From Isoetes taiwanensis (lineage: Eukaryota; Streptophyta; Lycopodiopsida; Isoetales; Isoetaceae), in the NCBI GenBank assembly GCA_021234155.1, contig JAJEKV010000058.1, positions 1,110,987-1,174,986 on the forward strand: a DNA stretch of 64,000 bases, written 5' to 3'. Positions 1-45,561 of this stretch are shown here, piece after piece; the stretch's first letter is position 1; each line of letters opens with the position of its first letter. The position numbers were made by a program, and so were the translations under genes. A model generated the notes under the pieces. The model did no database searches, was not told the origin of the DNA, and worked only from the letters and a program-made list of their open reading frames with translations.

Positions 1-3000
1 TGCCTCGTATCAATAGGCATATGCAATTTAGAAGGAATGTTTTACCTCCCGGCCTTTCCATCGATGAACAAAGGTTGGTTGCTTTCACGATTCAAGCCAT
101 TCCCGAACGAAACTATATATCTTCCGTTGGTCATTTTCATTATGCTCATCATTTGCATTACTTCATCTAAGTACCATCCATGACCGTAAAATTTTCGCAA
201 TTCATGCATGACATCTCTTCCAAGACGAGGCCGCAGCTTGGAGACCGATGCCATGATGTTGGTACTATGTTGTGTTAGAATGTTGTTGATTAAATGAAGG
301 GATTCATTAAAAGCGATTGTTTCATCATTTGGGTACTGCGCCTAGCAGTCAACACTCATTGGTACTTTGAACCTCGCCCATAGCTCAATTGTCGGACCTT
401 GGTCCAAAGAAGAACATGGCAAAAAGAAACCGCGAATCGTGGGACTCAATGATAAGGAAGCGCCTTCTTCCATCACTAATATAGCCTCGCAAGAGTGTGC
501 GCAAGCAACCCCTTCGCCTCGGGCAAAACTGGTACGTTTCATATTGTTGTCCATTAACGATTTTCAGCTCATCCCATGTCCTTGCAGAGCGGTGCAGCAA
601 AATTTGTCTCAAGTAGAATGCCTCTCCCACTCGAGGCAATAGCAATCGTATTCTACAAACTATTGGCTGCCTCACTCTTTTCTTCACTATATTGGTCACG
701 AATCCTTCTCGTTCTTGTTCTACATAGTTCTCAGGTACGTCTACCAAGGCAGAATTGAACGCTATCAATGTCTGTTGTTCGTAATACTGAATCTACGTGA
801 ACGTATCAAACCTAGCATCTAAAGAACGTAAAAAGTATCGATCTAACAATGATCGTGTGCTAGACAGTGGTAGATGTAATGGTAGACCGTGTCCTCCATG
901 CCGCCTCCGTTGCGGATAAATACCGTGCCCTCAAGTAATCTTGTATGTCATCCCTGGGAGGTCTTTTAGGAACTTGATCAGATGAAATGTTCTCTGATGA
1001 CCCATTTATGGTACTCTTCGTTACTGATGGTTGACCCGTGACACGCTCTCCTTCAGTATTGTTTCTCGACGAGCTTTCTGCATGTTCTTCATGCTGATTG
1101 CTTAATGACGACGGTATGAATGACGAATGCCTCTCTTGGGTACTCGAAAAGTCGCCACCGTCAATCCTTTTATATATGTATCCATAAAGGTATGAGAATA
1201 TATGTACTGTAGATGCTATATCCACCATAATGTGGCAATCCAATTCATGGAGCAGGAATGCATTATATGGCACCACCCATACACCATCTATAGTTCTTCT
1301 CCTATACTGGACATAACCCTTTGAGTCGAGATATGTCGTTTGAGTGATATCCTTCTGATATTTGTAGCAACAAAGTTGCACCATCCGGGCGAAAGCATCT
1401 ATGAGTATGCTTATGAATCATAAATTTTGAACTTGCCCTCGAAGGACCGGATCTCGGCAGTAATTCGACCAATCTCATCGATGCACTCAACCGTATCTCG
1501 TGCCCTGGTTCGAGGGACGAGGTGTTAATGGGGCAATCCGCTTTTTTGAAATTCTATGACGCTTATTACATATGATATCTCACGCTGAAAAAACTTATGA
1601 AGGAGCTCTTTTAATCGCTGTAATCTTCCATGGAAACAACGAACCACAATCATAGGGACATCCGATGCATTCTCGTCCACTCTCGCAGTGTCCTTTATTT
1701 CAGGCCAATCGATTTGTCGTCATAGTGATAAACAAAGTTGATGCCCTTTGGCTCTAGATAGAGCTAATGCATCAAGAAACTCAACGTAACACCATCGCTG
1801 GCTTCCTAAAAAGGACGATGGCAAGACAATGTCGGCCGGGTCGCCATTTTCTCGCCTCAATAATCCTCGCCATATTGTATTCTTCTATTGCGAAAATGTC
1901 TATGCTTTCTAAAGTAGTTCAATCGAGCATCCTCGACTCTTGAGTACATATCTACCAAGTATTCTCCACATAGACGCACCAAGTTGGATGAATCGGTCTT
2001 CATGTAGCAATCCGGGTCATGTACCATTGCAATTGTGTAAGACCATGTTCGCTCTCGAGTCCCCAACCAATTGTACCATGAATATGAGATGATATTGCAA
2101 ATGGCTCATACATAGGATCAAGTATGTTCACAAAGGTTGGTTCACCTTCGCTTCGCACCCAAAAACTAGCTACTCTAGGTGCAATGTCAAAGATATTGTT
2201 AACATCCACGATAGTCGCGATATATCATCACTAGCGCTTGCTCCTTGTACGCTTATATATGGACGGGCCCGGCGATGATCCCATCGCTCAAGGTTTCAAT
2301 AAAGGGATTTACTTGATCAAGAACTAAACCTACGATACCGATCCATTGAAATGGCACGCTTTGAGCTCGAGCTTGTGTGTACCTCTCCGACTCATCATAT
2401 ATGTACCAATGTATTGATGGCCGCTTTTCCCCCCACTAGGGCTTAGTCGATGATATGTTCGATCCGTTATGGTTACTTTATGAAGGAAAGTCTAAATCTA
2501 CAAATTTACCACTTACTCCAAGTACACTAAAGCAAAATAATCTATTCACCTTTCTTGCTAGTTTTGCAAATTCCGTATGTTGTAGAGATCATATAGTGTC
2601 ATAGAATAGGAGGCAATGGCGGCAATAGCCATCTTCCTTCATTGCAACATAAGCCATTTCTTTCAACATTTAACAATGGAATTTGACAATAAGTGCATCT
2701 CTTATTCCATATACACATAGCATATGTAATGATTTATTGTCAAGTTCATGCGATGTGCACAAGTTTCCAATGTGCGTATGACTTTCTCCTCCATCATTGA
2801 CCTTCTTCATTAGGTGTGCGATCGTGTTCATGTTTGAGCGCTTTGAGTCCAAAATCTCAAGAGTTTGTGATTGTAGACAACCTTGTTCACAGGTATTTCT
2901 AAATTTGAAAACCGAGCAAATAGCCTCTAATTGCTCTTCTCCAACCCGAGTAGAATGCAATATTCTTGCACGTTCTCTTGCTATTTGCCTTAAATGTTGC

Positions 3001-3783
3001 TTAATATTTCTCACAGCCAATGGGTTTTCAAGCGTTTGAGAGTTTCTAATAGGAGAGACGATAGATGGCTCACCATGGGTATGGGTTGGCGTCATAATTA
3101 ATTGGTTTAGCTGATGCATATTTTCTTCGGGGTTTTGAATACGACATTGATTCATACAACTTCGCTTTTCTTCTTTCACATTTCCATCACTTGCAACTAG
3201 GGACCGGTTATCTACAATGGAGCTCTCTATAAGTCTATCCTCAGTTAGCTTTGTATGGCGTTCTCTGTCTATTCGTCGTATCATGTCTCTATCCTCCGCA
3301 GATAAGTTTATGTAGCGTTCTACTCTTCTACGTCGTATCCTGTCCCTATCCTCCTCTGGATAGGTTCACAGTGGCGTTCTCTTTCTATTTGACGATCTTC
3401 TCTATCCTCTTCTGATAAGTTGGCATAACGTTCCCTTCTTTTAGATTGTATTCTTTGCATACTCTCTTTGGCCTAATCTAAGTTACACTCTTCGATCAAA
3501 CTATTCAAAGTCGTACTATTATCTTGTTTACCCACAGTTGTACCTATGTGTTCTGTATTTTTTTCTTCTATTATTCTAGCTCGACGTTGTCTTGCACGCT
3601 CTAGTTCTTTCTCGTATCCTCTCCCTATCATCCTCAGTCAAATTTGCATAGCGCGCGCGCTCTCTCTGTCGTGCTCTCTTTCTATATCTCTCAACTAGAT
3701 CTCTTTGTGCGACTCTATCACTATCATTCATGATTGTTTACTTTAGGTAATTCCTATTTGACTGATGGAATATTGAAGTACCA
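1..3783 (-). pseudogene. Helitron Rep/helicase, degraded, helicase part outside window
   Basis: Read on the - strand from about 3783, the protein begins MNDSDRVAQRDLVERYRKRA and continues with basic repeats of the form (N/K)LTEDDRERIRER, the usual Helitron N-terminus. About 2670-3284 encodes a 204-residue open stretch. Near 1820-1740 is VLPSSFLGSQRW then LDALALSRAKGH and WPEIKD, matching the Rep region. Near 1560 is VIEFQKSGLPH, which leads into the HUH nickase motif at 1522-1530. About 760-560 gives EAFYLRQILLHRSARTWDEL, the conserved segment just before the Pif1-type helicase. The order is that of a RepHel protein for rolling-circle transposition. Many stops and frameshifts break it, so it is not functional. 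The helicase would lie at coordinates below 1. Exact element ends are not seen here. Confidence 0.85.
1522..1530 (-). other. HUH nickase motif with internal stop
   Basis: On the - strand this reads CAT TAA CAC, that is His-stop-His, in frame with IEFQKSGLP before it and LVPRTRARDTVE after it. In Helitron Rep proteins this is the His-hydrophobic-His metal-binding pair, so the nonsense codon sits inside the catalytic motif itself. Confidence 0.7.
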
Positions 3784-16380: not shown

Positions 16381-16523
16381 CTATTTGCTCATAAAGGAAA
16401 CGACGGCACCAAAGGTAATATAAACGTCCATCAATTTTCTCAGAAATCATGTTTCCATTTCTCACTTGTACACCCAATTTTTGTGCTTAATAGCTCTGAT
16501 TTTAGTTTGACAGGCAAGTGCAA

Positions 16524-17582
16524 ATGGAGGATCTAATTCCAGGGCTTCCAAATGATGTAGGGATGCTATGTTTAGGCCGGATTTCGTATCAAAGCCATGC
16601 TGCGATGCAGGGAGTATGCAAAAAATGGAAGGAATTGACCAACAATCCGTCGTATTTCAGCTACAGATGCGCGCAAGGCTTCACCAGCAAAGCGATCTGC
16701 ATTCTACAGGCATCTAAACCCACTGCACAAAAAATCGGAACCCTGCCCACGTTCCGTCTATGCATGCTGGATCCAAAGAATGAAGCTTGGACATGGCTGC
16801 CCTCCATACCCGATTTCCCGCAAAGTATGCCCCTCTTCTGCAAATGCGAATCTGTCAACGGAGAAATATTTGTGATTGGAGGCTGGCATCCAGATACATA
16901 TGATCCTATTTCTTCTGTCTATGCCTTCAATTTTAGCTCCGGATTGTGGCGCAGAGCCGCTGATATGCTCACTCCTCGTTCCTTTTTTGCTTGTGGAGTT
17001 TTAGACGGCTGTATTTTAGTTGCAGGAGGGCATGATTCTGATAAAAATGCCCTCTCCAGTGCAGAAATTTACAACCCAATTCTGAATATGTGGAAGCCCC
17101 TTCCTGACATGAGCCAGGGCAGGGATGAAGCCAAAGGAATTGTTTCACACGGCAAATTCTATGCCGTTGGTGGGTACCCAACTCAATTCCAAGGCGGATT
17201 TACAGAGAGTGTAGATATATTTGATCCAGAAGAAGGCTGCTGGAGAGTTATGGAGGATTTCTGGTTTAAAAGGGCTGCTCCTAGTACCGCATTTGCTTGG
17301 AATGGGGATATTTTTGCATTCCGAGGTCTGGATTTGGTGAATTTTGATGTTAGGATGAAAAATTGGCGCGCTGTAGATGCGATTTCTGGCGGAGGAGAGG
17401 TTAAATGCGTGAATATAGTAGGGGATGAATTAATTGTGATGGTTAGAATAGGAGGAGAATTTATTCGAACGCTTGTTTATACGAAGAAAAAGGAATGTGG
17501 AAAGAGCGCGGAGTGGAGAATCTTCGAACCGGAGAAGGACTTTTGCGGTCTGCCTGAATTTGCATGCACTGTCGAAATATGA
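16524..17582 (+). CDS. F-box/kelch-repeat protein (SKIP20/KISS ME DEADLY-like)
   Basis: An intronless frame of 352 residues. The ATG at 16524 is chosen because the codon two before it in frame is GTG and the F-box starts at once. The F-box spans residues 4-44 (LIPGLPNDVG...VCKKWKELTNNP) and would bind the SKP1-type adaptor of an SCF ubiquitin ligase. Kelch-type repeats follow: VIGGW at 117-121, VAGGH at 166-170 and AVGGY at 214-218, each with a downstream aromatic/Trp pair (LWRR, MWKPL, CWRV), then a degenerate blade ending near WRAVD. The arrangement and length match the plant family that targets type-B response regulators and phenylalanine ammonia-lyase. The cargo of this member is unknown. 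Cytosol or nucleus is expected, with no signal peptide. No lesion is seen; this is the best intact gene in the window. Confidence 0.93.
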   Translation: MEDLIPGLPNDVGMLCLGRISYQSHAAMQGVCKKWKELTNNPSYFSYRCAQGFTSKAICILQASKPTAQKIGTLPTFRLCMLDPKNEAWTWLPSIPDFPQSMPLFCKCESVNGEIFVIGGWHPDTYDPISSVYAFNFSSGLWRRAADMLTPRSFFACGVLDGCILVAGGHDSDKNALSSAEIYNPILNMWKPLPDMSQGRDEAKGIVSHGKFYAVGGYPTQFQGGFTESVDIFDPEEGCWRVMEDFWFKRAAPSTAFAWNGDIFAFRGLDLVNFDVRMKNWRAVDAISGGGEVKCVNIVGDELIVMVRIGGEFIRTLVYTKKKECGKSAEWRIFEPEKDFCGLPEFACTVEI

Positions 17583-18945
17583 ATTCCAGAAATTGCCCAC
17601 ATTGGCTTCTTGATTTAATCCCACAAATCTGACTATTGATTCATTCCATGCAACTCGTAAATTCCATATGAATCAGTTGATTTAAGTACTTACTGTTGTT
17701 CAATTCTTCTTGGTGATTTTTAAGTATTGTTACGAAAACGAAACTATTTCAATCCATTTCTTGCAACCCTTCCTCATCTCCACTACTAAATCCCTATATT
17801 GCAAGTTGTAGCATGCTTCTACTCCTAACTTTTAGCACCAATATAAAAGTCATCTAATGTTGGATCTAATTTATCTTGCTCTCTATCCCCTTCATCTTTT
17901 GAGCTATGTTCAAATTATCTCGGAAGAGTTTGCAATCCCTTTCTTTATATCACCTGACATCAGTGATGACTTTAAGGTGTGAAACTTCGTAAAGTTGCTA
18001 TATTTTACCATTTTTTAAAATCTGGATTCGATGGTTTACTAGGATGCGTACGCTAAAGAACTTCATAAAATCGCCAAAATCTGATATTATTACATCCCAA
18101 TTATAGCAAATTCGCCAAATTAATGGACATTTTACAGTAAAAACCTCAACTTTATGGTAAAACATCCAATTCTACTAAATTCATTCCTATAAAAATGTTG
18201 GAAAAATAGGAAACAATCGCCACCATTTCTATAGTTTAGAAGCATCTAGAGGATGATAAAGTCATCACTGCCTGACATTTGGTATAGTGGTGAATCACTA
18301 GTTTAGATATGAAGGGATTTGAGTTCCATAGTTTGGATGAGTTCGTGCAAAGTCGATTGCTTGTGGGGAATTGACTCATGTTTGAGCATCTCATGGACCT
18401 AATGACCTTAAGTGAATGTAACAAAAATGCTCTTTCTTCCTTCTTACTATCCTTCAAAATTATACTCACCATATGGCCTTTAGAGTAAAACATGGGCAAA
18501 ATTGGCTGCCATGTGAAGGGATGAGCAAAGCTTTTGTCTTGTACAAGTTGACCTTCTTGCTAGTTGCCTCGCAAGGTATAAGATGTTATTGCACAACACG
18601 ACACTCGTCGACAAAAACATGTATGGAAGGTGCATTAGGCAATCTTTGCCATAATTTTATATATTTCACAAAAGATAAGATAAGATAAGATAAGATAAAA
18701 AGAGTGAAGTGACATGGACGTGTTTTGGTGCCAAACGAGTAGCCAATAAACCATTAGAATGATGATGTGGTAAAAATAGTAAAATAGAGCATTTTTTTTT
18801 TCTCACGGCTAGTGTAGATGGGCCAAACGCATTGATGACAACTATTATGGCATTGTGGCCCAAACACCCTCTATATGTTAAAAAATATTGGCCCCATCAA
18901 AGAAGTCAATATAAGATGTACCAATAATATGGATTCATCAACAAT
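17583..18945. other. Intergenic, no gene seen
   Basis: 3' flank of the F-box/kelch gene followed by AT-rich sequence. No coding homology seen. It contains the GATAA pentamer run at 18674-18699. Confidence 0.5.
18674..18699. repeat. (GATAA)n microsatellite
   Basis: Five consecutive GATAA units in an A-rich context. Confidence 0.9.
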
Positions 18946-19009
18946 ATGACTCATCAACATAAAGCATTCCATAGATTTTGGATAATAGAGTGTTGTATTG
19001 GGGAATGGA

Positions 19010-19095
19010 AGGGAGGAGCCCCTTTCCGGTTCGGAAAGGGGGGCCCCCAACCGGTGGCAGCCGGGGTCCCTTCCAAACCGGAAAGGGGCGACCCC
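19010..19095. repeat. GC-rich palindromic block upstream of the Crypton-like gene
   Basis: CCCCTTTCCG at 19019-19028 and CGGAAAGGGG at 19032-19041 form a perfect 10-bp stem with a 3-base loop. CGGAAAGGGG recurs at 19079-19088, with CCGGTGGCAGCCGG between. It is strikingly GC-rich against AT-rich surroundings and sits about 140-210 bases before the predicted start codon, so it may be promoter or element-terminal sequence. Confidence 0.6.
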
Positions 19096-19227
19096 CTTTC
19101 ATTCCTCAACAAAATGGAAGTTTGGTCGTTCGAAATTTTGTACTTTTTGTTTTTGTTTTTTTCTTTTGTTGGCACAGTTTTGTCATTTTCGAGAGGAAGA
19201 CTGCGACATTCTTGGAGAAGCTCGGCC

Positions 19228-21387
19228 ATGGCTCCAGGGAGCGGCCCTGCTTCACGGCCTCCTCTTCCTCCTTCTACACAGAAATATGGCCTTCATAGGG
19301 CGAAGGCCATTGCGCGCCAGCAGATGAAGCATGCTGAAGGCATTGATGTGATTTTTCTTGCATCCTTTTTTGTTTTTCGGATTCTTTTAGTAATGAATGG
19401 TTGTTCTTCAGCAAATGGTACTCAAGGAGTTATATTTCAAGGTTTAGTTACTACTTCAGGTATTTTTTTTAATTTTAGACCTCATTTCATTGATTTCATT
19501 CTTTCTAATGGAAAGTTTATGATCTGTAGGTTTTCAGGGCATGCTTCCATCAACGTTGAGCGATTCTGAAGGTAGGTGCATGATTCCTTAACATGTTTGT
19601 GTTTTCTTGAAGATTTTACCAGTTAATGGTCCTTAAATAGTGTTTATGTTCATGCAGGTCAGAATATGATGTCTTTGACAAATAAGAAGTCCGATCTCAT
19701 GTCTTTGATGAACCAGAAGTCTGTTGCCATGAAATATCCTGGTAAGTTTGTCATTTTCTCTTGCTTTATTGTGCACAAATTTCTGTAATAGAGAGTTCTT
19801 ATGCATGGCAGATGCTAACAACGTGGTATTACACGAAAAAACTAGTTCATCTACTTTGGAAGGTATGATTTTAGTTGAATGATGACAGTTTGTGGAATTT
19901 TAACAAGTAGTTTGATGCATGCAGGTATCAATGGAAGCTCTATTACTCCTATGGAGACATTTTGTGCTTCAAGTCTGTTTTTTGTTTTTGTATTTTAATT
20001 ACAATAGGTCATTTTTTCTAGAAGAAGTAGCTGCAAATAGCGCTTCATTTGAAGCTCCCTCTTTTAGTCTTGGCTCTTGTGTTGAGAACAGTAAAAAGGA
20101 TAATGGAAAAGACACAAGTATTTCTGTCATAATTTTTGATCAGATTCAGCAAGATCAAGAGAAACCAAGTATTTCTAAGATTAATCCTGGTCGTCGTGCT
20201 GGAAAGAGAGCCTTAAAGATTGGTGGATTTAGGGAATTGGATCCGGAATTGATGGAGAAAGTTAGTGCTTGTGGAAACAATGCATCACAACCTAAGGACG
20301 ATTGGGCCAGGGGTAGGTTTGATGCGTGGAGGTTACATGTTGGGCAGAAAATTGATAGAGAAATAGAAGAGATTCCACTCGACGAGCTTGCTGGAAATGT
20401 GGAGCCATTCTTTCTTTGCGTACAACGGCTTGATGGTGTCAAGTATCCGCCGGATAGGTAAGTTTCTATCATTTTTTATTTTAGTTTGAATATTTCTAGT
20501 TCTAGTATACAAATTTTGAATGTTATAATTTCAGTTTGCAGAATCTTTTCCGAAGTTTTAATAAGATTCTTCGGCGAGCACAAGACATTAAACAGTTGAA
20601 TACTAAGCAGGAAGAAAAGATAATTGATATGTTCCACGATATCAAGTTTTTGAAGGTGAGAACAGCATTGGAAATATCAATGTAGGAGTCTGCTGCCGCT
20701 GGTTTTCTTCCCAAGCATCAGAAGAGTGATATCCTTAGCAAGTCTGATCAGGAGAAGATCTTGGCGCATCCAATGCACCAAGTTAATACTGGTACTGGTT
20801 TGCAGAAAAGGTTTGCATTCTACTGCATGACTAGATTTTTGATCCGAGGTGGACAAGAATTATCCAAGGTTCGTGATTTCCAATTCAATGTTGATAAAGA
20901 TTGTGTTAAGGATTATATAGAATACTGTGAGACTACTAGCAAAAACTGGCATGACGGAATGAATAAATGCAAACCAGAGGATTTTAGAGAGCCCGTTAGG
21001 TGTTATGAGCTTGATGTAATTGATACTTGGAAGCATCTATTGAGTCATCTTCCGCAGTATGAAGTCAAGGACAAGATTGGTGGATGACATGTCTTCTCCC
21101 AGGCTATAAACCGCCCAAAAAAATGGATCTTGTATAATGTCAGTCACGTGTCCAGTAAAACAATTTCTACATGGTTGAAAGACATGGTAGATGTCTGCGA
21201 AATTGAGGGGCATTTTACAAACAAAAGTTGTAGGAATACGGCCATTACACAAATGTCAGTTTCTGGTGTACCAATTGAGGTAGGCATGTCAATTACTGGG
21301 CACAAGAATAAGGACTCATATAAAAGGTATGATCAGAGTGGTGTCGTCGCTAAAGCTTCTGCTATGGTAGGTTATTTCATGTGGTAG
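19228..21387 (+). pseudogene. Crypton-like (DUF3504) tyrosine recombinase, 8 predicted exons, broken
   Basis: Predicted exons: 19228-19339, 19412-19441, 19530-19571, 19658-19741, 19812-19862, 19925-19972, 20022-20457 and 20535-21387. Joined they total 1656 bases (552 codons) in one frame; the first seven introns' upstream exons end in phase 1 except exon 7 (phase 2). Introns are 49-88 bases, mostly GT-AG; the first would need a GC donor. Exon 7 and 8 carry the recombinase: an N-terminal block (WARGRFDAWRLHV...FFLCVQRLDGVKYPPDSLQN), the first catalytic Arg in LIRGGQEL (20845-20847), the second in NKSCRNTAIT (Arg 21232-21234), TGHK (His 21301-21303) and the nucleophile Tyr in SYKRYDQ (21328-21330). 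This is the KIAA1958/ZMYM-type fold derived from Crypton transposons. Lesions: TAG at 20683-20685 and TGA at 21085-21087. Exons 1-6 are inferred from frame alone. Confidence 0.78.
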
Positions 21388-21631
21388 GAACTATTCTGAT
21401 TCGTTTCCGAGCAATGCTGAAAATTTAACTGTTGGATTGGCTGGATCTTCAAATTCTGCTGTGAAAGCTGCTGGTTTATATAATCCTTTAAAGGAGATCA
21501 CTAAGTCAGTGCCTATCGAGCTACCAGCTGAAATTGATGATGATTACTGCAAGGACTTGGATACTATCTTGCTGCAAAAGCCAGAATTGAGGCGTTACTT
21601 TCCACTGTTTTCTGCTGATCATATCTCTTGA
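21380..21631 (+). pseudogene. Frameshifted C-terminal extension of the Crypton-like protein
   Basis: Just after the last stop of the recombinase frame, another frame reads RNYSDSFPSNAENLTVGL then AGSSNSAVKAAGLYNPLKEI and ends LLQKPELRRYFPLFSADHIS-stop at 21629-21631. It has no start of its own and is open back to about 21380, so a one-base indel near 21380 most simply separates it from the catalytic domain. The composition (acidic, Ser/Asn-rich, then a compact C-terminal motif) fits a tail. An unrecognised very short intron is an alternative. Confidence 0.6.
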
Positions 21632-22689
21632 TGGAATTTATTTTCTTATTGTCTACATGTAACTTCCTTGGGTCAATGGCTTTATTGACATTGTTGTGTA
21701 TATTTTGTTTCTCTTCAAGTTAGAGTGGATGATAAGTTTTATATCTGAATTTGGATGAGATTCAAGACCGCTTTTTGGGTTGATAGCTTTTTTTTTTTTT
21801 TGTCAAATTGGATGCTTTACCATTATGTGTGCTGAAATTAGTTTACAACATTGGATGAGTGCGTAATGGATCGAAAAAAATCAAAGGCTACTGCACTAAG
21901 AACTAGAGAGGCTTTCTAGCTAAGTCGAGCTCTATAAAGCATCATCACAAGAAGATTAGAGTAATGCAGGATGAATTGGTGCAAGATGTCCATAATGAGG
22001 TATAAAAAAATGGTGATGAAGAGTGGATAACTCCAGATAGCCAAGAATAATGTATTAGCTTTTCCATCAATAATGTATTAGATTTTCCCCGTTCTTACTC
22101 AAATAGAAGTTGCAATATGAACTTTGTCCAGGTTATTAGCTTGATCCATAATAGGGAAGAGAGGAGTTGTGAGCCAACATAGGAAGAATTGCAAGCCAAA
22201 AAGAGAGCGCCCAATTCTGTTCTAAATCGACTATTTCCCTACGGTGCCAAATTTTAATTCTAATAGTGGTTCATGTTCAGTAAAATTTGGCCTGTCACAA
22301 TTCTCTATTTGGATCAAGATACATTTCTCACGTGGGAGTTTTTTTGTGATTACATGTGCATTTGAGGAGTGCAAATTTACCTCAAAATTTGACTATTGCA
22401 CCTCATCCAATTTCTCTCCGAAAAAGTTTTCGATATAGCTTAAAATACAATCTTTATGGCCCCATACTTGGTTTTGTGACAAAAATGTAGCATCTCTAAT
22501 TTTTTTAGGGAATGTTAACTTGATCCACTATTGATAGACCCCCCATATCTATCAGCTTATTTATATATGTTTTACCATTGTATCTTGACCGCACTCTCTC
22601 ATATTTATCTGTCCCTTCTTATCCTCCTATATATATAATTACTAGAAATTGAATTAGATATATCTATCGTTAGGCCTTTTGCCTTCTTA
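21632..22689. other. AT-rich flank, no gene seen
   Basis: No coding homology. CTTATCCTCCTATATATA occurs at about 22624 and again at about 22685; the second continues into the Helitron 5'-like sequence TATATACAAG. Confidence 0.5.
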
Positions 22690-22720
22690 TCCTCCTATAT
22701 ATACAAGTGTTTGCAATATG
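22690..22720 (+). mobile_element. Helitron 5'-terminus-like sequence
   Basis: TCCTCCTATATATACAAGTG starts after an A at 22689. It resembles TCCTTCTATATATATACAAG at 24087 and the reverse complement of the 38036 terminus. Helitrons begin with TC after a host A. No transposase lies nearby. Confidence 0.4.
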
Positions 22721-22734
22721 AGGGACTGCATAAA

Positions 22735-23540
22735 GCCCAAAGGTTCTATGAAGATTCTCTTAGATTCTCTAAAATTCCATCAAGATTCCCTTAGATTCTC
22801 AAAACTTTTAGGAAGATTCCCAAAGATTCTCTTGAGATTCTTCTAGATTTCCAAAGATTTTCTTAGATTCTTAATGTTCTACAAAGATTCCCCTAGATTC
22901 TTAAGATTATATGGAGATTCCCCTAGATTTTATTAAGATTCTCAAAGATTCTCTAAAGATTCCCCTAGATTCCAAAAAAAAACCCCAAGATTCCTCCAGT
23001 CTCTCCAAGATTCTATCAAGATTCTCCTAGATTCTTCGAGATTCCATTAAGATTCCCATAGATTCTTAAAGATGTTATGAAGATTCCTTTAGATTCCTCT
23101 AGATTCCCAAAGATTCATTTGAGACTCCCTAAGATTTCCTAAACATTCCCCTAGATTCTAAAAGAATACCCCAAGATTCCTCTAGATTCTCCAAGATTCT
23201 ATCAAGATTCGCCAAGATTCTCCAAGATTCTATCAAAATTCTATCCAAGAAGTGCTTGAGATTCCTATAGATTCTCTTGAGATTCCTCTAGTTCCCATAG
23301 ATTCTATGAAGATTCCCCTAGACTCCGCAAGATTCCATCAAGTTTCCTCTAGGTTCTTAAAGATTTTATCACGATTCCCTTAGATTCCCTTACATTCTCA
23401 AAGGTGCTCTCTTGATATTCCCATAGATTCTCTAAGATTATCATGATATTCCTCTGGATTCCCTAAGATCCTATAAAGATTCTCCTAGATTCCCTCAACT
23501 TACCATAGATTCCTTGAAACTCGAACATTCCAAAAAGATT
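22735..23540. repeat. Degenerate AGATTC satellite-like array
   Basis: For about 800 bases the + strand is built of variants of AAGATTCCCCTAGATTCT, with AGATTC (or AGATTT) recurring every 9-20 bases and fillers such as CCTAG, TTCTC, CCATCA and TATGA. The units are too variable for a clean period. No open frame is convincing. It looks like an old expanded simple array, possibly internal to a Helitron because Helitron-like 5' ends lie on both sides of it. Confidence 0.9.
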
Positions 23541-25495
23541 CTTAATGCTCGATCATGTTGGCTCCAACTGCGGCAAAATAATGTCAAAGCACCACTCATT
23601 GGAAAGCTCTCGACGAGAGGAATCCAATGGCATGGACCTCACCTCCAATGGCAAGCTACGTCCTTTTGAAGGCGATTAAACAAAAGGAAGCTTCCTAGAA
23701 TGTCCACTAATAAATGCTTTGCCACCTCATTACTTTTTTTTATTAATGAGGGTGCCACCTCACCTCCTTAAAAAAAAAACTAATTTAATATTAAAAAGTT
23801 AATGGCTAGGATCTTTTGATCTAACGGTTAAGATCTGCTACACCAAATTCACTTTTTGGCACCTTCCTTGCACCTTCCCCATAAAAATCAAGGGCTAGGA
23901 TTTCGCCCTCCCCTTTGATCCAACGGTTCACAGATGGGGTGTATGCCCCCATGCATGACTTTTGCATGCCCCCATCAAAATCCAAGGGCTTAAGCTACGC
24001 CACCTCACCAACTTTTTATCCAAGGGCCAAGATCAAAACTTTATATGTAATGTGCTATTTTATGACAACCCCCATGAGTTTCTATATCCTTCTATATATA
24101 TACAAGAATTTAGCTTTACGCTAAGCTGGAAATACCTGGGATTCTGCCAAAATAACTCAATGTCCTAATAAGACGACTTTTAACCAATCTAACAGCTTTG
24201 GCTATTTTTATCTTAAATTGAATACAATTGTCAAATGTGCATTTCAAGCATATAGGAATTTAATATGCTTTATTTACTCGCAATTCATCTCCAAGGTTAA
24301 TGTGGCGGGTGCTTAATATTGTTGCTTAGTTAGCCTACTTCATATTATATTTTATATGGCATGTGCATAATGTTGTCGTGTCTGCCATGATGGTGTTGCA
24401 ACTCTTGCAAAAAATGCAAGTTTGAGATAACAACTTTGAAGTATATTTACTCCCTCAACTTGATTGAGCGATGTTGTATGCTAGATCTAAGGTTGGTAAC
24501 CAATCCATGGATGATGCCAAGATTAAGAACATAGAGCTTTTTGGACATTTTTTAGAGCTAGAGAATGAGATTGTGTGAACTTAGGCAAAAGGTGCAAAAA
24601 CTTGGTATCAAAGATGCTTAATGTAAATGTTGAGGCCTATATTCAATGGAATTGGTCTAGATACTTAGTTTGGATTCTTTAAACTTTGCCAAAATTTTTT
24701 ACATTCTCGTCATGGCTCGTTTAAATTCTTTTGGATTCCATGAGATGCGCCCAATTTCCTTAGAGAGTCTCGTATTATTTCATTTGGATTTCATGAGATG
24801 GGCCTAGATTTAATAACATCTAAGTATGTAAGGGCAAAAAAAAAAAAAAACAAATTTGTCTTCAAAGAAAAACCATTAGGTTGCATAGCTCGGCTAATGA
24901 TAAATATTCAAATATTCAAGGATTCATAGGCACTGGATTTCATTATCTATCAGAATTGAAACCTTAGATGTCAAAATCATTGAGAACGTAATGGCATATG
25001 TGAAATCCATGTAAAGAAGTAGTGCTCTCTGCAATCATAGCGAATGTATTTAGAAAGAATGGATTCTAAATTCTAATGAATGTAAATGCTAAAGGCCTAT
25101 CTTTGCCTTTGAAAAATTGCTCCCACAAAGCCGCCAGACTAGCACAGGCTCTGTTGTCAGAAACATGAAGGTAGTTTTTTGAAGGTAGTTGGGTTTTTGA
25201 CGAGTGGATCTGCATACCATCTACAGACGTTCTAAACCGATATTGTTCTTTGTTGCTAGTTTAAGAGCCAATACAAAATATTCAGATTTTAAATAGCCCC
25301 CAATCTACAATGGAAAATTGGGAATCTAGCATGGGAAGGAGGAAACGAGCGGAAGGCTGCATTCAGTCATAGCCATAAGTATCCATTTTTGCATTTTTTA
25401 TGATTTCCGGAGCAATTGATCAAAAAATCATGCCTGGCACCGTAATCCCAACTCTTCACAATTAATTCTTCTGCGAAATTCCCCCTCTTGAAGGT

Positions 25496-26923: not shown

Positions 26924-27290
26924 TATTATCCGGCCCCCCTGTTGTATTGGAGGAGTGGAAGAGGTATTTGGTGCAGGTCGTTGGAGGAGTGGAAGAGGTA
27001 TTTGGTGCAGGTCGGTGCAGATTCGGGCCTCCGATTCGACAAGCCGCTGCGATGGTTTTGCTCATCATGGTTTTGTCAAGTTTATTATCCGGCCCCCACA
27101 GCCGGCCCCCGTCCACCGAGCATGGTATTATCCAGCCCCCCTTCCCCTCGCGACCGACAAAAACCATCGCACGGCGAATTGGAGGCCCGACCGCGACCGA
27201 CCAAGCACCAAATACCTCTTCCACTCCTCCAACGACCTGCACCAAATACCTCTTCCACTCCTCCAATACAACAGGGGGGGCGGATAATAA
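26924..27290. repeat. Hairpin-forming inverted repeat with GGCCCCCC ends
   Basis: The left arm (26924 to about 27060) begins TATTATCCGGCCCCCCTG and the right arm (about 27150 to 27290) ends in CAGGGGGGGCGGATAATA. Each arm holds two copies of a 34-bp unit (26947-26980 and 26981-27014 on the left; 27233-27266 and about 27198-27232 inverted on the right). The arms share more than about 130 bases at high identity, including GATGGTTTTTG-type and GGGCCTCC.ATTCG blocks. The loop is roughly 90 bases and holds further TATTATCC(G/A)GCCCCC copies. Transcribed either way it would fold into a long RNA hairpin. Open frames of up to 206 residues here merely read through the repeat on both strands. Confidence 0.88.
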
Positions 27291-29469: not shown

Positions 29470-29610
29470 AATTGAATCTTATATTATAAAGTTTTACCGT
29501 AAGTGTTGGACCATGCCCTAATTTAGATGGCTTAGATTATCAGATTGCATCCGAAGGCCAAGATTTATTGCATGACGTCTCACCACTGTGATTGGTTATT
29601 GCTTTGATCT

Positions 29611-31240
29611 CTTAAGAGGAAAGGGAAAAGGAAAAGGGAAAGGGAGGATGAAAGGGAAAATGACGGGTAAAAAGGCACGAGAAAACAGGGAAGAGGGAAA
29701 ATGGAAGGGAAAAAAGGCATAGGAAAAAGGGGAAGTGGAAAAGGGTGAGGAACGGGAAAAAGAAAAAAAATAAGATAAAAGAAAAAGAGGAGGGAGGAAA
29801 AGGAAGGGAAAAAATGCAACGGGAAAAGGGAAAGAGGGAAAGGGTGAGGAAAGGAGGAAAGGGGAAGGGAAAAGGGGGAAGAGAAAAATGATTGGAGAGA
29901 CGGAAAAAAGGCATGGGAAAATACAAAGGGAAAGGGAAAACGAAAAAGAAGGCAGAAAGAGGAAAAAGGAAGGGAAAAAGGGCACGAGGAAACGAGAGAG
30001 GAACATGGAAAAGAGGAAGAGGGGAAGGGCATGTGAAAAATTTGAAGAGAAAAAGGGTGAGGAAAGGAAAAAGAAAAGAAAGGGAAAAAGAGCATGGGAA
30101 AGGGAAAAAGAAAAAGAAAAAGAAAAAGAAAAAGAAAAAGAAAAAGAAAAAGAAAAAGAAAAAGAAAAAGAAAAAGAAAAAGAAAAAGAAAAAGAAAAAG
30201 ACGGATAGGGAAATGGGAAAAGGGAAAAGGGGAAGAGGGTGGGAAATGAGGAAAAGAAACACGTAAAAAAGGTAAGGAAAAAGGAATGGAAAAAGATATG
30301 GGAAAATAAAAATGGAAAGAGAAATGGAAATGGAAAGGGGAAGGGTGAGGAGAAAAGGGAACATGGAAAATGAGAAGGGATGAAAAAGGAAGGCAAAGGA
30401 AAAAGAAAAAGGGAGGCAAAGAGGGGGGGAGGGGAGAAAATGGAAAAAAGGAGCGAGGAAAATGGGAAAGGGGAAGATGAAATTAGCACGGGAAAAATGG
30501 AAAGAGGCAAAGGGCGAGGAAAGGGAAAGAAAGCAAGGGAAAAAGAGCATGAAAAATGAAAAAGAAAAAAGAAAAAAGGGAATAGAGAAAGGGGAAATGG
30601 AAAAGGGGAAGAGGGTGAGGAAAAGAGGAAAATGAGCACGAAAAAGGGTGGGAAAAAGGAATTGAAAAAGGCATGGAAAAAGGGAAAGGGAAAGAGAAAA
30701 GGAAAAAGAAGAGGGAAGGGAAGGAGGAAAAAGACACGGGAAAAAGGTGGAGAAAGGATGAAAAAGGAAGGAAAAAAAAGAGATGGAAAGTGGGGGAGGA
30801 AAAGGAAAAAGGGTACAAGAAAAAAGGGGAGAGAGAAATGGGAAAATGGAGGGCATGGAATAAAGAGGAAGAGGGTGGGGAAAGGAGAAAAGGGGCATAT
30901 GAAAAAGATGGAAAAAAGGAAACAAGAAAAAGGCATGAAAAAAGAAAAAGGGAAAGGGAAAAAAAAAAGAAAAGGAAGAGGAAAGGGAAAGGGAAAGGGA
31001 AAAAGGGCGCGAAAAAATTAGGAAGAAAGGGGAAAGATTGAAAAGGAAAAAGTTCATCGAAAAAGGGAAAGGAAAAAATGAAAAGGGAAAAAGGAAGGGA
31101 AGGGAGAAGGGGGTTAAAAAAAAGAAAAAATGGAGAAGGAAAAAAGAATAGGAAAAATGAGAAAAGAAAAAAAAAGAAAGTGCGTAAGAGAATGATGAAA
31201 ACAGAAAACGCGAGATAGAGTAGAAGACAAAGGAAAGGGG
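29611..31240. repeat. 1.6-kb homopurine tract
   Basis: The + strand is almost entirely A and G, in endless variants of GGGAAAAAGG and GGAAAAGG, with rare T or C in ATG/CACG/GGTG interruptions. A perfect hexamer run, (AAAAAG) about 16 times, lies at 30104-30200. Mirror-symmetric purine tracts of this kind can form triplex DNA. The very long open frames here (up to 481 residues of Phe/Pro/Leu/Ser on the - strand, Lys/Glu/Arg on +) are artefacts of composition. Confidence 0.95.
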
Positions 31241-31361
31241 AAGCGTGTCGAATACACAAAATCCATTATAGCCAGCAATGCTGGACTTAGTTTCTATTAT
31301 ATTAGATATGAATAGGAGTCTGAGATGAACAGGTTTCCGTCCACATGGGTTCCCAACTTAT

Positions 31362-31389
31362 GCCCAGCAACGCTGGGCACCATTACTAG
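31362..31389 (+). mobile_element. Helitron 3' end
   Basis: A perfect 7-bp stem, GCCCAGC AAC GCTGGGC, at 31362-31378, then ACCATTA and CTAG at 31386-31389, followed by T. This is the diagnostic plant Helitron terminus (hairpin, about ten bases, CTRR, host T). Confidence 0.8.
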
Positions 31390-33202
31390 TTAGATATATT
31401 ATCGTTGAATAACTTGGAGCGACTAGCATCTGTGAATCGTTGCATAAAGAGGTACTTTTTCCTTGAATTTAGTTTGAGATTTAGATTAGAGTTCGAGAAT
31501 GCCTTCTTCAATTAAAAAATGCAATTTGAGCACCGTAAGTGCCCATGGCGTCTGTTTTTAATTCTCTCACAAAATTTGCAGAGTTATAACTTCCTTCTCG
31601 CTTAACTTCCTTCCCGCTATGGCCAGATTGTTTTTCGATGAAAAACGGACCCTCTTCCCTCCTATTTGTTTCCTTCATATTCTGCGTGCTTTTAGCTACT
31701 CTATTTGTGTCGTAGCTAAAGATAGAATTAGAACCATGGTTTCTTGACGGAAGCATTCATGCACATAACGCTGAAAATGAAAGGATACGAATGGAAAAAG
31801 CTGATGGGGTAAATCAATCGCAAATGATTTCAATTTGCACCGGATGTTGAGAACAAAAAATATCAAAAGCCTCTTTGAGCTGATCTTGCTTGCACACCTC
31901 CAAAACTTCCAAAGAAATTTTTTTCTGTTTGCCAAACTTTTGCGGCTACATCCGACTGCTTCTAATAGGGATTAAAATGCTTGCCATAATTTAGAGTCTG
32001 GTGAACACTGAGCATGGAATGAAGGGGCTTCTGGGTTTCCCCCTGTTCCTCAGCTGCTAGACACTGCATATGAAAGAAAAGGATGGCGACCAAACAGAGG
32101 GAGCTATCATAGGCGAAACATTGGGTTGCAAATCAAACGCATATACCAGCTGTTTTCAAAATAATGAAGGGTAAGTTGTAATCAGGAAATCCAGAAACGC
32201 TTATTTCATTAGACTTCATAGATAGAACGGACTAACCTTTGCGTATGTTATAATTACCTTGCTTTTGTCTCAATTCGCCACAGTTGGGCTACTTTAACAC
32301 AATCGAAAAATCAAATGTCTATATATTAGCTTTTGAAGGCAAATCCTTCAAATGTGCAGATAGCCGAGCCATCCAGTCTTTTAAGCTAATGCTTTCGGAC
32401 ATTTCCATACATATCCAAGTTTTTTTGAGCTGGTGCTTCCGGACACCGGCCTTTATTCAATTTCGACAGACATTAGAGCTTTAGCTCCATAAATCAAAGT
32501 AACACTCAAAAACAGGAATGAGAGGCCTCTGTATAATTTTTATTCCATACAGGACAGTGGAATTCCATCTACAGGGCATCGAAGTTCCATTTATAATATC
32601 GGATATAGAGGTAGGTAAGACATGCTAAAAATTCTGTATTCGTAAATAGTCAACTAAATGCCATGTTGGCCAACCAAAATTATCAATGAATCACAAATTC
32701 TTACACTTTTAGACAAATTCCAACGATGATCCTTAATACTCCAATGCAAAATTTGTATCTTCCAAAATCTCATTTTGATTAAGAGAAGGTCGATCCCCCT
32801 TCCTCGCCCGTTATGGCTGAGATAAACAAGCTTGCCCTCCTAAACTTGCATTTTTTTCCCACTTTAATGGTAGAAAATGGTGAATCCCAAGATATTTTTC
32901 TCAAGTCGAACTCGCTGGGCAAATTGCAGAACGAAGGCTTTGAGGGCCACTGCTTTCCAAATTGATTAGATGAAAAAAAGTTGGCTTCTTAAGAATGCAA
33001 GGTAGATTCAACTGTGGGAAGTAGAGTGTATCTGGGGAAGAACAGAGCATTTTGCAGTACAAATGATCGATTTGAATGCAGGGTGCTAACCTTGGGCTCC
33101 CAAATTCAAAAAAGGCCTGTATGGAAGCAGCATCAATACTGACAATATTGTGCACAAGAGCCATGCTTCTCAATTTCGATAGATTTTGAGAATCTAAATT
33201 AA
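31390..33202. other. AT-rich stretch between two Helitron ends, no gene seen
   Basis: Lies between the + oriented end at 31389 and the - oriented end at 33203. No coding homology recognised on either strand. Confidence 0.5.
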
Positions 33203-39179: not shown

Positions 39180-40440
39180 TATAAATATTGATGTACATCT
39201 TATTCAAGATAAAAAAACAAGAGCTCGAGATGTCTTGGAACTTGTACACACAGATTTGTGTGGCCCTTTGAACATAAGAGGAAGAACAAAAAAAGAGTAC
39301 TTTTTAAACAATATGTGAGTGACATGGAAAAGGAAACTGGAAAAAAAGTAAAGTGTATCAGATCTGATAGGGGAGGGGAATACCTGTCCATAAAGTCCAA
39401 ATATTTTTGCATTACTAATGGCATAAGGAGACAATTGACATGCAGATACATCGGGTGTAGTAGAAAGGAAAAATATGACCATAATGGATGCAGTAAGGTC
39501 TATGATCAAGGATAGTGGACTCCCCAACTATCTCTGGGAAGAAACCCTCAAACCTTTATTCTAATCCAAAACAAGCTCCCTTCTTCAAGTATCAAAGGTC
39601 ATATTTCAGAACTTACCACAGTAAAAAGAAAAGACAAGTCTGAGTTATGACATGTTTAAAGCTTATGGATATCTTGTATATGTTCATGTACCCTCAGAAT
39701 TGAGGAAGAAACTTGATGACAAAGCTGAGATAGGCTTTCTTGTTGGTTATAATGAAGAAAGTAAAGGATATAGAATTTTTATTCCAACCAGCAAAGCAAT
39801 AGTGGTAAGCAGGGATATAATATTTGATGAGAAAGTCCTCTATGAAGATAGAAATGAGAAAAAGGAATAAAATAGGAAAAATGTGGACAAAGAAGCCAAA
39901 TTTGGGAAAACAATGGATGTTGACTTGGACTCTAACAGTGAATTGGACAATGCAGAAAATAATATAACAGATTCAGATGAAAACAGAAATGAGAGCAGAG
40001 AAAATCAAGCAGAAAAGCCTATTAAAAGTAATGTGATAGAGAAGAGAAGGGAAACTCAAGCAGAGAGATTATGAGAAGAGGCAAACTTGGAAAATGGTCA
40101 ATATGGCAGAAATGAGCATGGAAGAAGCAGAAGGATTGAAAATTTAGGATATGACTATGATCAAATCACGGCCTTAATTGAGGATGAACAGTTGCCTAAA
40201 ACAGTTGAAGAAGCACTGATCAGTCATGGCAAAACCAAGTGGGAAGAAGCCATGCAAGAGGAACTAAATTCATTTGAAGAGACACAAGCATATGATCTTA
40301 TGCAGCATCTCACCAATCAAAAATCATAGGTACCAAGTGGCTTTACAAGATAAAAGTTAATGTTGATGGAAGCAAGAGATTTAGCTCGTCTAGTAGCCCA
40401 AGGATACACTTAAAAATTGAATCTTGAACTCCACCATATG
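39180..40440 (+). pseudogene. Ty1/copia retrotransposon pol remnant
   Basis: Integrase pieces come first: DVLELVHTDLCGPLNIRG (about 39229-39282) with the first catalytic Asp, then YVSDMEKETGKKVKC and IRSDRGGEYLS with the second Asp, then GIRRQLT (to about 39515). A segment of the core, including the FIDDFTR-type stretch, is missing. From 39652 the frame reads AYGYLVYVHVPSELRKKLDD then GFLVGYNEESKGYRIF and VVSRDIIFDE, the end of integrase and the linker. In-frame stops at about 39868 and 40072 interrupt it before ALISHGKTKWEEAMQEELNS, the start of reverse transcriptase. The remainder of RT and RNase H is lost. No LTR pair was found. Confidence 0.88.
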
Positions 40441-41519: not shown

Positions 41520-43390
41520 AGCCAAATCCGCCCGTCAACTGCTATTCTGGCACCATAGCCAAATCTATCTGTTTCGTGGGCGCTCTGCTACTACGGCATC
41601 CCCAAATTCCTCTGTTTTTGTGGGCATTAGTGTGATCAATCTCTGCTATTCTCTGCCAGCTCCAGTTTTGGGTTGACAAATGCCTCTATTTTAGTCGGAT
41701 TAAGCTGTACTTTTGGGTAGTTTTTCGGATTAATCTCTTCTATTCTACCAAAGACGAGTTTCTTTGTTTTGGGTCTTCGTTGGGGGGGAGGGAGGGGGAT
41801 TAATGCCACTTCGGCGATAAATTTCTCTGCTTTTGGGACCGAATCTTGTTGGGCGGATTATATGGCGATAAAAACTCTCTGCATTTGGGGATTAAAACCA
41901 TTGTAATGCTATTACGCACTACCAACTGCTTCCGATTCATGAGTTGGGAGGCTTTAAATTTTCTCTTGTTTGTGTTGGGGCTTCTGCTGTAACAAAAGCA
42001 TATTTTTAACAAACTGCAGCCGAGACAATCATAGATGCACCGGAGGCATAACTCGCTTTCGCTTGTTGCTTTGTTTCCATGCCTAGTCCCGATTTGTTGG
42101 TTAGTTGTCCGGGCCCACATCGACCTTTGATTTGCATTGGCATTTGTTGCGTATTAAACCTACCCCGCTTTTTGCCCCCTATTTTTGAACTTTCGACGGA
42201 TTTTGTTCTTCCTTCCGACCATTCACACTTCGCCTTTGCTTTCTATTCTACACCGCCTTCGAAAAAGCTTGAAACGCCCTACGAAAATAATTCCTCCCTG
42301 TTTGCCCTCATACCTACCGGATTTCTTCCGAGCTTTCCAATGCGCTTGCTCGCGCCCTACTACTACGGTGGCTATGGTGGGTAGAAAATAAAAAAAACAG
42401 AGCACCTAGTATGTACATCACCAAAGATCGAAGGAAAAAAACCAAGTCCACAAACCCAAATGTTTATTTTCCTCTCCTCAGATCGGCTAATCCAGTTTGA
42501 AGAACGATCCGGTGGGGATTTAATGAGCAATCGCTGATAATAGTTTCACATTTATTGGTTGGTCTAGCTTAGCTTTCAGTTGGAAGAATTGAGCAAGGGG
42601 AGTCACGTGGTTGTGGCTCCTCCTCAATAAATATTAATTAAGAAAATACAAAAAATGTTCCTCAATAATATTTTTCGACACTTGGCGTGCATGCACTGGA
42701 GCATCAAAGAATCTCGAAGAATAGAATCAAAGTGTATGCATTATATATGGTTTGATTGTCTTTATGATCTTAGTTTATCACACATGTACTAAGGGCAAGT
42801 AAGAGCAAATGCTACAAATTGAAATGTCAATAGATGAATAATATATCGATCTAAAATGCACAAAAAAACAAAATTTCCAAGTCATGAATTTACATATCTA
42901 GCAATATAATAATCAATAGTGCATTGTATTTTATGGGACTAGCGTCCCTTTTTACAAAGCCAAGTAGTCCATGAAAACACATTGACACTGTTCACGAGTA
43001 TTTTGATGAAATGGTCTATTTATATCCATTTATTTTTTATCTACCTTTTCATTACACCTAAAAAAAAATAGGAAAGTTGTTCGCAATCTTCAACATCTAT
43101 AATGAAATTTTATGTTCCGAGATGCCTTCAATAATTGTCCTGCATCTCTCATGGACCGTATGGCCCACATAGTCCTCAAAACTTTTATTTTACCAACTAT
43201 TATACCTTTTCAATGAATACCTATAAAGTTCCTCGTGCTCGCCGTGTTCGAGAATATATATGAAGCTTTTGGTCACAATCCTACTAAGATGGCCTCATTG
43301 CATGAACCAAGTACTAATGCAATTTCACATGTTCTCATAATGGTATTGCCTTCATTGCGTGCTTGGATCTCGTATACACTAAATTACACA
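41520..43390. other. Flank without recognisable gene
   Basis: Upstream of the zinc-ribbon ORF. Somewhat less AT-rich up to 42400, perhaps 5'-UTR and promoter. A 101-residue frame at 42079-42384 on + resembles nothing known. Confidence 0.4.
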
Positions 43391-43399
43391 TAAATATGT

Positions 43400-43590
43400 G
43401 GAACAAAATATTTTTACCCCGGTTATTGTGATTCCATCGCAAAAAATTCCATCCCGCGGAATCACGGTAGGAGACCCCAAGTTATCGTGCAGCCCCCGTT
43501 ATCCGGTACTGCGAGGTCGCTTCCAGTCATTTATACCTTCCCATGGAATCACAACTTTGCTATTCCGCCGGATGGAATCACCAATTCACG
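43400..43590 (+). repeat. Left terminal inverted repeat of the MULE
   Basis: Pairs with 45372-45561. It starts GGAACAAAATATTTTTACCC. Confidence 0.88.
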
Positions 43591-43925
43591 ATTCTTCGAG
43601 ATGGAATCACCGCTCATATATTCCACCGGCGGAATCACAAAATCAGATTATTTATTCCATGAGACGGAATCACAATCGTGTTTTTACGCGGGACGGAATC
43701 ACAACCTTGCTATTCCGCCAGATGGAATCACGAACGTCTGATTCCGTGAGATGGAATCACCACTTACGTATCCCGCCGATAGAATCACAACATTGCTATT
43801 ACGCGGATGGAATTACAACCATGCGATTACGCGCCTTTGGAATCACAAATGTAAGATTCTTCGAGATAGAATCACCACGAATGTATTCCGCCGACGGTAT
43901 CACAACCGCTATTCCGCGGGGCGGA
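43540..43925 (+). repeat. GGAATCAC subterminal minisatellite
   Basis: About ten irregular units of GA(T/C)GGAATCACAA followed by 20-30 variable bases such as CTTGCTATTCCGCC or TGTCTGATTCCGTGA. The open frame of 187 residues across it is an artefact of the repeat. Subterminal arrays of this kind can be transposase-binding sites. Confidence 0.85.
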
Positions 43926-44065
43926 TGGTTCAATCCCCCAGGTTTATGCCCGATTCTATAAAAAATGGTTGAGGATGGTTTAAGCTAAGCCTACGTTACT
44001 TTGAAGATCATGAATGGTGCAAAAAAAAAAGATTGGCTATTCCATTTTGTTTGTGCATGTCCACT

Positions 44066-44170: not shown

Positions 44171-45370
44171 CCATTGTTATGCTATGCAATGTCCAGGGGA
44201 TTTGAACCCCTTGCCAATATCGGCAATGCCATGGGCTACTTCAAAGCAAGAGCAAGAAATAAGCCCGTTTTAAAGCAAGAAATAGAATAGAAACCCTTCC
44301 TACCGTAAAGCCTAAGACCGTGCATAACCAAGATCAGAGTCGAAAAGGCGTGGGGAGGAATTTGGCAGCCTTGCAAAATTCTCGCAAGGTCCCAAGTCAT
44401 GAATAGATCGGATCCCAAGCTGAAGTATTTCTATATGTATGAATGCGAGGTTTTTATAATGCCGCATCCTCCTTTGATCCAAATTCTCGTAAAAGTCTGC
44501 ATTGTTTGCTTCTACCTCTCCCAATCCGGCCATTATAAAAGTCCGTTGTATATCTTTGCATTGGCATTTAAGCACTCCTAGTCTTCATATTTGGCGGGAT
44601 AATGCTCAACCCGATGTGAATGATACTTCCCACGAAGAGGCTTAAATGAAAACCGCTCTTCATCGATGACCACCACAGTTCAAAGCGAGCTTAAAAGCGG
44701 ATAAAGATCATGCGGTGAGAAGAGAGGATGATTTGGGGCGATTTGGCCTCACCACGCTTCTTAGGAGAGATTTGCATCAAATTTTTAATACAAAAAGCAG
44801 AAGCTGTTGCCCATGCTCACTATGTTCTCGCTCTTTTGGATTAGACAGAGCCCAAACAAGGAGAAAGAAAAACATAGACGATTCTAAGTGTTAGGAATCA
44901 TCCAATGTCTTGAAAAAGCACCGAAAAAGTAATTGAAGCTAGAGAAAACGGCTCTAGAGAAAGGTAAAACAAAGGAAAACAAGCCGAAAAACGGCTCCAC
45001 CGGCTCTTTTGCTGCTTTTACCCGCGATCGCAACGAAACCCGTTTCTAACCACGTAAAACAGATTTGTTCTAACCCCACAAATTACTTTGCCATAGCCAC
45101 ACTCCTTCTGCCTGGAAAACAAGAAAACAAGTGAAAAATGGTACCCAAATGTGTTTATTGCCATTTGTGATGTGCTCCCCCAAGCACCGCTTTCCGTGCG
45201 ATTCCCCAAGCTCAAGGTCTTTTACCTTTAAGCCCAACGCATTTCCTCAACGCCAGAAAGCCCTCTTTACTTCCGCCATATAGCGGCGAAATCCCAATGA
45301 GCAAAACCTCCCAATGAACATGACGTAACAAATTTAAATTTTACAGGGGATATTCTACCAGGCAGAGCGT
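44171..45370. other. MULE interior, unrecognised
   Basis: No transposase. Near 44192-44215 a sequence resembling a reversed tRNA T-arm (GGGGATTTGAACCCC) occurs without a full tRNA. Other open frames are short and unrecognised. It may hold other captured fragments. Confidence 0.5.
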
Positions 45371-45371
45371 G

Positions 45372-45561
45372 GAATAAAAGGGCAGTGATTCCGTCCGGTG
45401 GGATTTGAAGGTTGTGATTCCACCGGAAGGTATTAAACGAAGCTGTCAGGTACGGATAACGGGCCTCCAGAACGGATCCCGTTCCCGGAGGGTCTGTGAT
45501 TCTGCGGGAGGGAATATCTTGCGATGGAATCACAATAACCAGGGTAAAAATATTTTCACGC
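45372..45561 (-). repeat. Right terminal inverted repeat of the MULE
   Basis: Inverted partner of 43400-43590. It ends in GGTAAAAATATTTTCACGC just before the target duplication. Confidence 0.88.

Follow-up and report, generated by a model that had tools for sequence, protein, structure and literature searches.

A possible dead copy of a Crypton-type tyrosine recombinase gene in DNA of Isoetes taiwanensis

A 64,000-nucleotide stretch of contig JAJEKV010000058.1 from Isoetes taiwanensis (the window) contains a gene for a tyrosine recombinase, which is modeled on the plus strand from position 19228 to 21366. We read the locus as the dead copy of a tyrosine recombinase gene of the Crypton type (related to DUF3504) in a land-plant genome, and we hold this reading with about as much belief as doubt. 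That the gene belonged to a mobile element rather than being a resident gene is inferred with less certainty. The element origin is favored because the catalytic residues are retained, whereas domesticated animal genes lost theirs. With no second copy in the window and neither ends nor a target site found, mobility is unproven.

The central part of the gene consists of two exons, 20022–20457 and 20535–21366, which are separated by a 77-nt intron (gtaagt...tttcag) in phase 2. The joined exons contain 2 stops in 422 codons, whereas 2000 dinucleotide shuffles contained 27.1 on average and 11 at the minimum. By this low stop count, the recombinase gene is real. In its simplest form, the model comprises seven exons with 575 codons up to 21366 and 2 stops inside; the exact eight-exon model of the initial annotation is not supported. 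The two main exons are exons 6 and 7 of this model. Exon 6, which has no in-frame stop, encodes an N-terminal linker followed by the beginning of the core-binding (QRICH1-like) region. Exon 7 completes the core-binding region and encodes the catalytic domain of the tyrosine recombinase, and the family profile, hhalign, Pfam Phage_integrase, and Cre-fold matches were found there. Exon 7 may contain one or two further small introns.

The initial annotation had assigned the gene to the DUF3504/Crypton family. Two protein searches with the recombinase protein alone found no relative among 3222 and 910 word-sharing candidates, and the word filter of these searches is blind to distant relatives: P0001, which scored 53.6 bits directly, was reported by neither. 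A PDB sequence search with the recombinase protein alone gave nothing relevant. The third protein search used an alignment of the recombinase protein with two hand-composed probes. Nine real proteins were retrieved in this way, and seven carried a PF12012 annotation, including proteins from Mercenaria and Ptychodera (KIAA1958-like). Later tests used real proteins only, yet their choice may lean towards the recombinase protein. P0008 and P0009, which have no PF12012, were excluded from the profiles. The profile of the seven PF12012 proteins gave 83.0 bits over residues 111–412, and 5000 shuffles reached at most 8.1. The hhalign analysis of five PF12012 proteins against residues 92–422 gave a probability of 98.7 and an E-value of 1.5e-16 over 292 columns. 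A profile of the three proteins with named animal hosts alone still gave 33.8 bits, with shuffles at most 6.9. These results support the membership of the predicted protein in the DUF3504/Crypton (CryptonA) family by homology along the core-binding and catalytic region, as the initial annotation had proposed, with a tree that does not back the placement.

The box signature, a Phage_integrase match, a PHROG integrase match, and the Cre fold together indicated a member of the tyrosine recombinase superfamily. In Pfam, the sole significant match was Phage_integrase (1.2e-6, 28.9 bits, cutoff 27.1) for a 233-residue catalytic piece; on a longer read, it was 2.8e-6. PHROGs gave an integrase match at 7.2e-7, and NCBIfam gave an XerA-type match alone, at an E-value of 0.062. 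A structure model of middling confidence (predicted local distance difference test score, pLDDT, 64) matched the fold of Cre. A single-sequence structure model (pLDDT 35.5) was discarded.

The catalytic landmarks named in the initial annotation were all located in frame: FLIRGGQE at 20836–20859, NKSCRNTA at 21220–21243, and TGHKNKDSYKRYDQ at 21295–21336. Catalytic arginine I in FLIRGGQE (20845–20847) is invariant in the alignment with P0001–P0005. Catalytic arginine II (21232–21234) and the box III histidine of TGHK (21301–21303) are kept. The catalytic tyrosine (21328–21330) is located nine residues past the GHK histidine, as in P0001–P0004. At box II, a lysine (21223–21225) is present where P0001–P0004 carry histidine. 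This lysine may be a family trait, or it may reflect an earlier loss of activity. According to passages of Kojima and Jurka (PMC3212892), loss of the tyrosine and of arginine II is common to all DUF3504 genes of vertebrates. The recombinase keeps both. Judged by these residues, it differs from the domesticated DUF3504 genes and comes nearer to the enzyme of an element, without having the full tetrad. By the established mechanism of tyrosine recombinases, the intact protein would bind paired sites and cut one strand at a time via its tyrosine, forming a 3'-phosphotyrosine link. Circular DNA would then be excised and inserted without DDE-type chemistry.

Several points weigh against the reading as a dead Crypton-type copy. 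Pfam DUF3504 (PF12012) gave no match to the recombinase at E-values up to 10, and the same model matches P0001–P0005 at 1e-23 to 4.4e-29. Identity to P0001–P0005 is just 19–24%. Of the R-H-R-Y tetrad, R, R, and Y are kept and the first histidine is replaced by lysine, so that the tetrad is incomplete. The gene has several short exons, unlike the compact Cryptons. No second recombinase copy was found within the 64-kb window, and no element ends or target site were found. A tree of 13 sequences (209 columns) left the recombinase unplaced on a long branch, and in it four DUF3504 proteins grouped with a phage integrase, without the recombinase, at 54% support. A control profile was made from eight integrases (seven from cyanobacterial plasmids and one from a phage), hand-picked from 25 listed hits of the recombinase protein itself. 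On the whole recombinase protein, it gave 43.4 bits, over residues 313–410 only. For the catalytic (C-terminal) half, this bacterial profile scored higher than the DUF3504 profile (46.0 versus 29.0 bits), whereas the N-terminal half (residues 1–262 of the joined exons) gave 44.7 bits with the DUF3504 profile and −2.0 bits with the bacterial one. The core-binding half thus ties the protein to the DUF3504 family, and the catalytic half leans to bacterial integrases. The initial annotation had counted a best match to an ordinary phage-type integrase against its proposal; such a preference was seen in the catalytic half and was absent from the N-terminal half.

A bacterial or phage contaminant was rejected as the main reading on account of the intron-like structure, the plant-like neighbors, and the lack of close prokaryotic or viral relatives in pattern scans. 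These scans pointed to one stretch in viral contigs and six stretches in prokaryote genome contigs, and tblastn found 0 relatives among them. Matches in plasmids and phages had E-values no better than 4e-4 and were thus weak, with none of the 215 and 5 records covering 80% of the query. Among the 25 plasmid and phage matches listed, coverage of the query was at most 47%.

The two in-frame stops and a frame change were weighed as lesions or as signs of further introns. The first stop is a TAG at 20683–20685, and it lies within an ungapped alignment block with P0001–P0005, where 4–6 of 20 residues are identical to each relative. A 60-nt candidate intron with a near-consensus donor (AAG/GTGAGA) and a pyrimidine-rich acceptor could span it. 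Without this 60-nt stretch, the family profile gave 67.9 bits instead of 83.0, a loss of 15.1 bits. Because of the score loss and the ungapped homology, the first stop was taken as a lesion, and it is probably in coding sequence. The second stop, a TGA at 21085–21087, is located in a poorly conserved stretch, at residue 184 in a region of the structure model with pLDDT below 50. Excising 39 or 87 nt there lowered the score by just 5.0–5.4 bits, to 77.6–78.0. With a small score loss and a low-pLDDT stretch, this stop is less certain as a lesion and may be intronic. Of the two nonsense codons that the initial annotation took as lesions, the first is therefore retained as one, and the second is left in doubt. 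The reading frame changes after 21366, near 21367–21371. A possible C-terminal tail follows in another frame at 21371–21631, downstream of either a frameshift or one more intron. It has 86 open codons, a length that was stop-free in 0.25% of 2000 shuffles, and it gave no Pfam match. The frame change noted in the initial annotation does exist; several frame-compatible GT-AG introns could account for it just as a frameshift would, which also counts against a dead copy. The gene is likely, though not proven, to be inactivated.

The initial annotation had ascribed the inactivation to methylation-driven decay. The exons had an observed/expected ratio of CpG of 0.55, compared with 0.59 for the window and 0.73 for a neighboring F-box gene, and TpG and CpA in the exons were near the window values; such decay is not supported. 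A single C-to-T or G-to-A change separates each stop from a sense codon, but the genetic code makes this true of all stop codons, and it carries no weight as a sign of decay.

Alternatively, the gene could be working or have worked recently, with the stops lying in small introns or arising from sequencing errors and the apparent frameshift being an intron. Frame-compatible GT-AG introns can span each of the two stops and the frame change, and the 60-nt candidate with its good donor is similar in size to the other introns of the seven-exon model (49–86 nt). There is no third stop in the 422 codons. When both stop stretches were excised, the frame was open and the score fell by 20.4 bits, to 62.6; a wholly open spliced form is thus possible on paper, and this too speaks against a dead copy. 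The score loss and the ungapped homology at the first stop argue the other way, and we regard a working gene as improbable. A pseudogene of a resident plant gene is unlikely as well, but it deserves more credit. Such a domesticated gene would have an old Crypton origin with the recombinase residues kept, and its phase-1 exons would form a host-type N-terminal region. The seven exons with mostly good splice sites, the single copy in the 64-kb window, and the missing box II histidine all fit this explanation. Against it, the domesticated DUF3504 genes of animals are reported, in passages of PMC3212892, to have lost both the tyrosine and arginine II, residues that are kept here. A conserved plant gene might also be expected to show a close relative in the two protein searches, and none was seen there, with a word filter that misses distant relatives.

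The locus might instead be a remnant of another element with a tyrosine recombinase, either of the DIRS, Ngaro, or PAT type or a virus-like element bearing such an enzyme. The preference of the catalytic half for generic tyrosine recombinases and the unplaced position in the tree are in line with this, and passages of PMC4157794 report DIRS-like elements in Viridiplantae. The match of the N-terminal half is specific to DUF3504 proteins, however, and Pfam found no reverse transcriptase, RNase H, or other element domain in the frames given to it, which were eight open reading frames from 18236 to 24124 and the tail. We give this explanation a slim chance. Compared with these alternatives, a dead copy of a Crypton-type gene accounts for the locus in our preferred reading. 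More tentatively, a distinct land-plant lineage of Crypton-type elements may exist or have existed, with a spliced gene, a box II lysine, and intact copies elsewhere in this plant; we lean slightly to the doubtful side here.

Upstream of the main exons, the initial annotation had described a chain of short phase-1 exons and a frame that would be hard to obtain by chance. Putative exon 1 (19228–19459) has an ATG start, an open frame, a CAG/gtattt donor, and a phase-1 end. It corresponds to exons 1 and 2 of the initial annotation with the supposed intron retained. No phase-1 GT donor was present between 19228 and 19411, so the first intron of that annotation would require a non-GT donor. Putative exon 1 has no homology support and is the weakest part of the model. 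The following four putative exons are in phase 1 on both sides: exon 2 (19530–19571, 42 nt), exon 3 (19658–19741, 84 nt), exon 4 (19812–19862, 51 nt), and exon 5 (19925–19972, 48 nt). Exon 2 lies in the chain that outscored all shuffles, exons 3 and 4 have splice-chain support, and exon 5 has a weak donor (CAA/gtctgt).

The five short phase-1 exons in 19412–19972 had a splice score of 34, which was equaled by 0 of 2000 shuffles (largest 30). By count, a chain of at least five exons was found in 4.35% of 2000 shuffles. The best all-phase-1 chain from the ATG had 475 coding nt and was matched by 1.7% of 1000 shuffles; the best chain of any phase had 529 nt, and 1.9% of shuffles did as well. These best chains need not coincide with the seven-exon model, and the 5' end is for this reason modestly supported. 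The upstream exons are backed by splice scores, but not overwhelmingly. The proposed chain thus stands by its splice score, with two corrections: the first intron has no phase-1 GT donor, and the last intron is in phase 2.

Exon 3 contains an in-frame 30-nt tandem duplication at 19664–19723, with copies 77% alike. Tandem duplication among the short exons was tested in 15 pairs. In the numbering of the initial annotation, pair 6–7 was the only one to beat all 300 shuffles; pair 4–6 gave 0.047. A GC-rich inverted repeat is located 113 bp before the ATG, at 18993–19114. Its two 47-nt arms are 81% complementary and 28 nt apart, and in single-stranded form the repeat gave a better fold than 200 of 200 shuffles (z −5.0). 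It looks like a small foldback or a repeat of the MITE (miniature inverted-repeat transposable element) type.

The surroundings of the gene suggest a land-plant host, as the initial annotation had held. An F-box/kelch gene of the FKB95 type lies 1.6 kb upstream at 16506–17582 (Kelch_FKB95 86.5 bits, F-box 21.6 bits, both above cutoffs). Further downstream are Copia-like fragments: a Copia-type SH3-like piece at 39625–39870 (88.6 bits) and an integrase-core piece at 39213–39515 that is under the Pfam cutoff. Minus-strand frames at 385–3365 resemble Helitron pieces, as judged by eye; none of the three submitted to Pfam had a match.

The window also contains several repeats. About 1.1 kb past the recombinase gene, a diverged array of the AAGATTC/TAGATTC type spans 22744–23493, with overlapping periods of 10, 21, 31, 41, and 62 nt. 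An inverted repeat of about 138 nt with 90% identity, together with a 34-nt tandem duplication, is located at 26924–27289. A strand-skewed purine tract of nearly 1.8 kb (29580–31357; GC skew 0.51 and AT skew 0.48 at 30001–32000) opens long, probably spurious reading frames. Minisatellite-like GGAATCAC repeats with periods of 29, 58, and 115 occur at 43383–43961 and 45267–45560, and a 61-nt stretch recurs in inverted orientation some 2 kb away.

Conserved regulators of animals, among them ZMYM and QRICH1, descend from Crypton recombinases. A relative in plants whose catalytic residues are nearly complete would broaden the range of Crypton hosts. It would also bear on vertical descent versus horizontal transfer and would supply an outgroup for the animal genes. 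A distinct land-plant lineage, if it exists or existed, would extend to streptophytes a family known in animals, fungi, and stramenopiles. Passages of PMC3212892 name animals, fungi, oomycetes, and a diatom (stramenopiles) as Crypton hosts. In the passages available of a nematode-centered survey that included three plants (PMC4157794), a single Crypton was reported, from a sea anemone, and one further match was regarded as likely contamination. Two sources count against novelty: a passage of a 2015 survey lists Crypton among the superfamilies in all groups studied, including land plants (PMC4438587), and Crypton appears in the legend to a figure of a paper on Asteraceae (PMC4546089). Judged by titles, starts of abstracts, and passages, none of the papers among the matches listed describes a DUF3504 gene of a plant, with subscription literature thinly covered. 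The finding would be a Crypton-type recombinase gene in an unexpected host; the family itself is known, and the Crypton label has already been applied to land plants in surveys.

Among known systems, CryptonF and CryptonS are tyrosine recombinase DNA transposons of eukaryotes, as passages of PMC3212892 describe them; the likeness is by description, not by sequence, and Pfam found no GCR1_C domain in the pieces given. KCTD1, KIAA1958, ZMYM2-4, QRICH1, and WOC are domesticated DUF3504 genes. For QRICH1 (PDB 9hjt and 9hju), the match to the recombinase stops where box II begins, with four residues of the chain left, implying that QRICH1 lacks the remainder of the catalytic end. Cre, XerA, Tn1549 Int, and the integron integrase IntI have the tyrosine recombinase fold in common with the recombinase model, at 10–14% identity in structural alignments. 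The DUF3504 proteins are collinear with the recombinase over the 292 aligned columns. P0001–P0004 (P0003 is from Mercenaria) have, like the recombinase, a core-binding (QRICH1-like) region, a DUF3504 region, and a catalytic (Phage_integrase) end in this order, and the shorter P0006 and P0007 (Ptychodera, KIAA1958-like) have the core-binding and DUF3504 regions in the same order. Unlike these DUF3504 proteins, the recombinase has an apparent plant host, a lysine at box II, no PF12012 match, and several short upstream exons.
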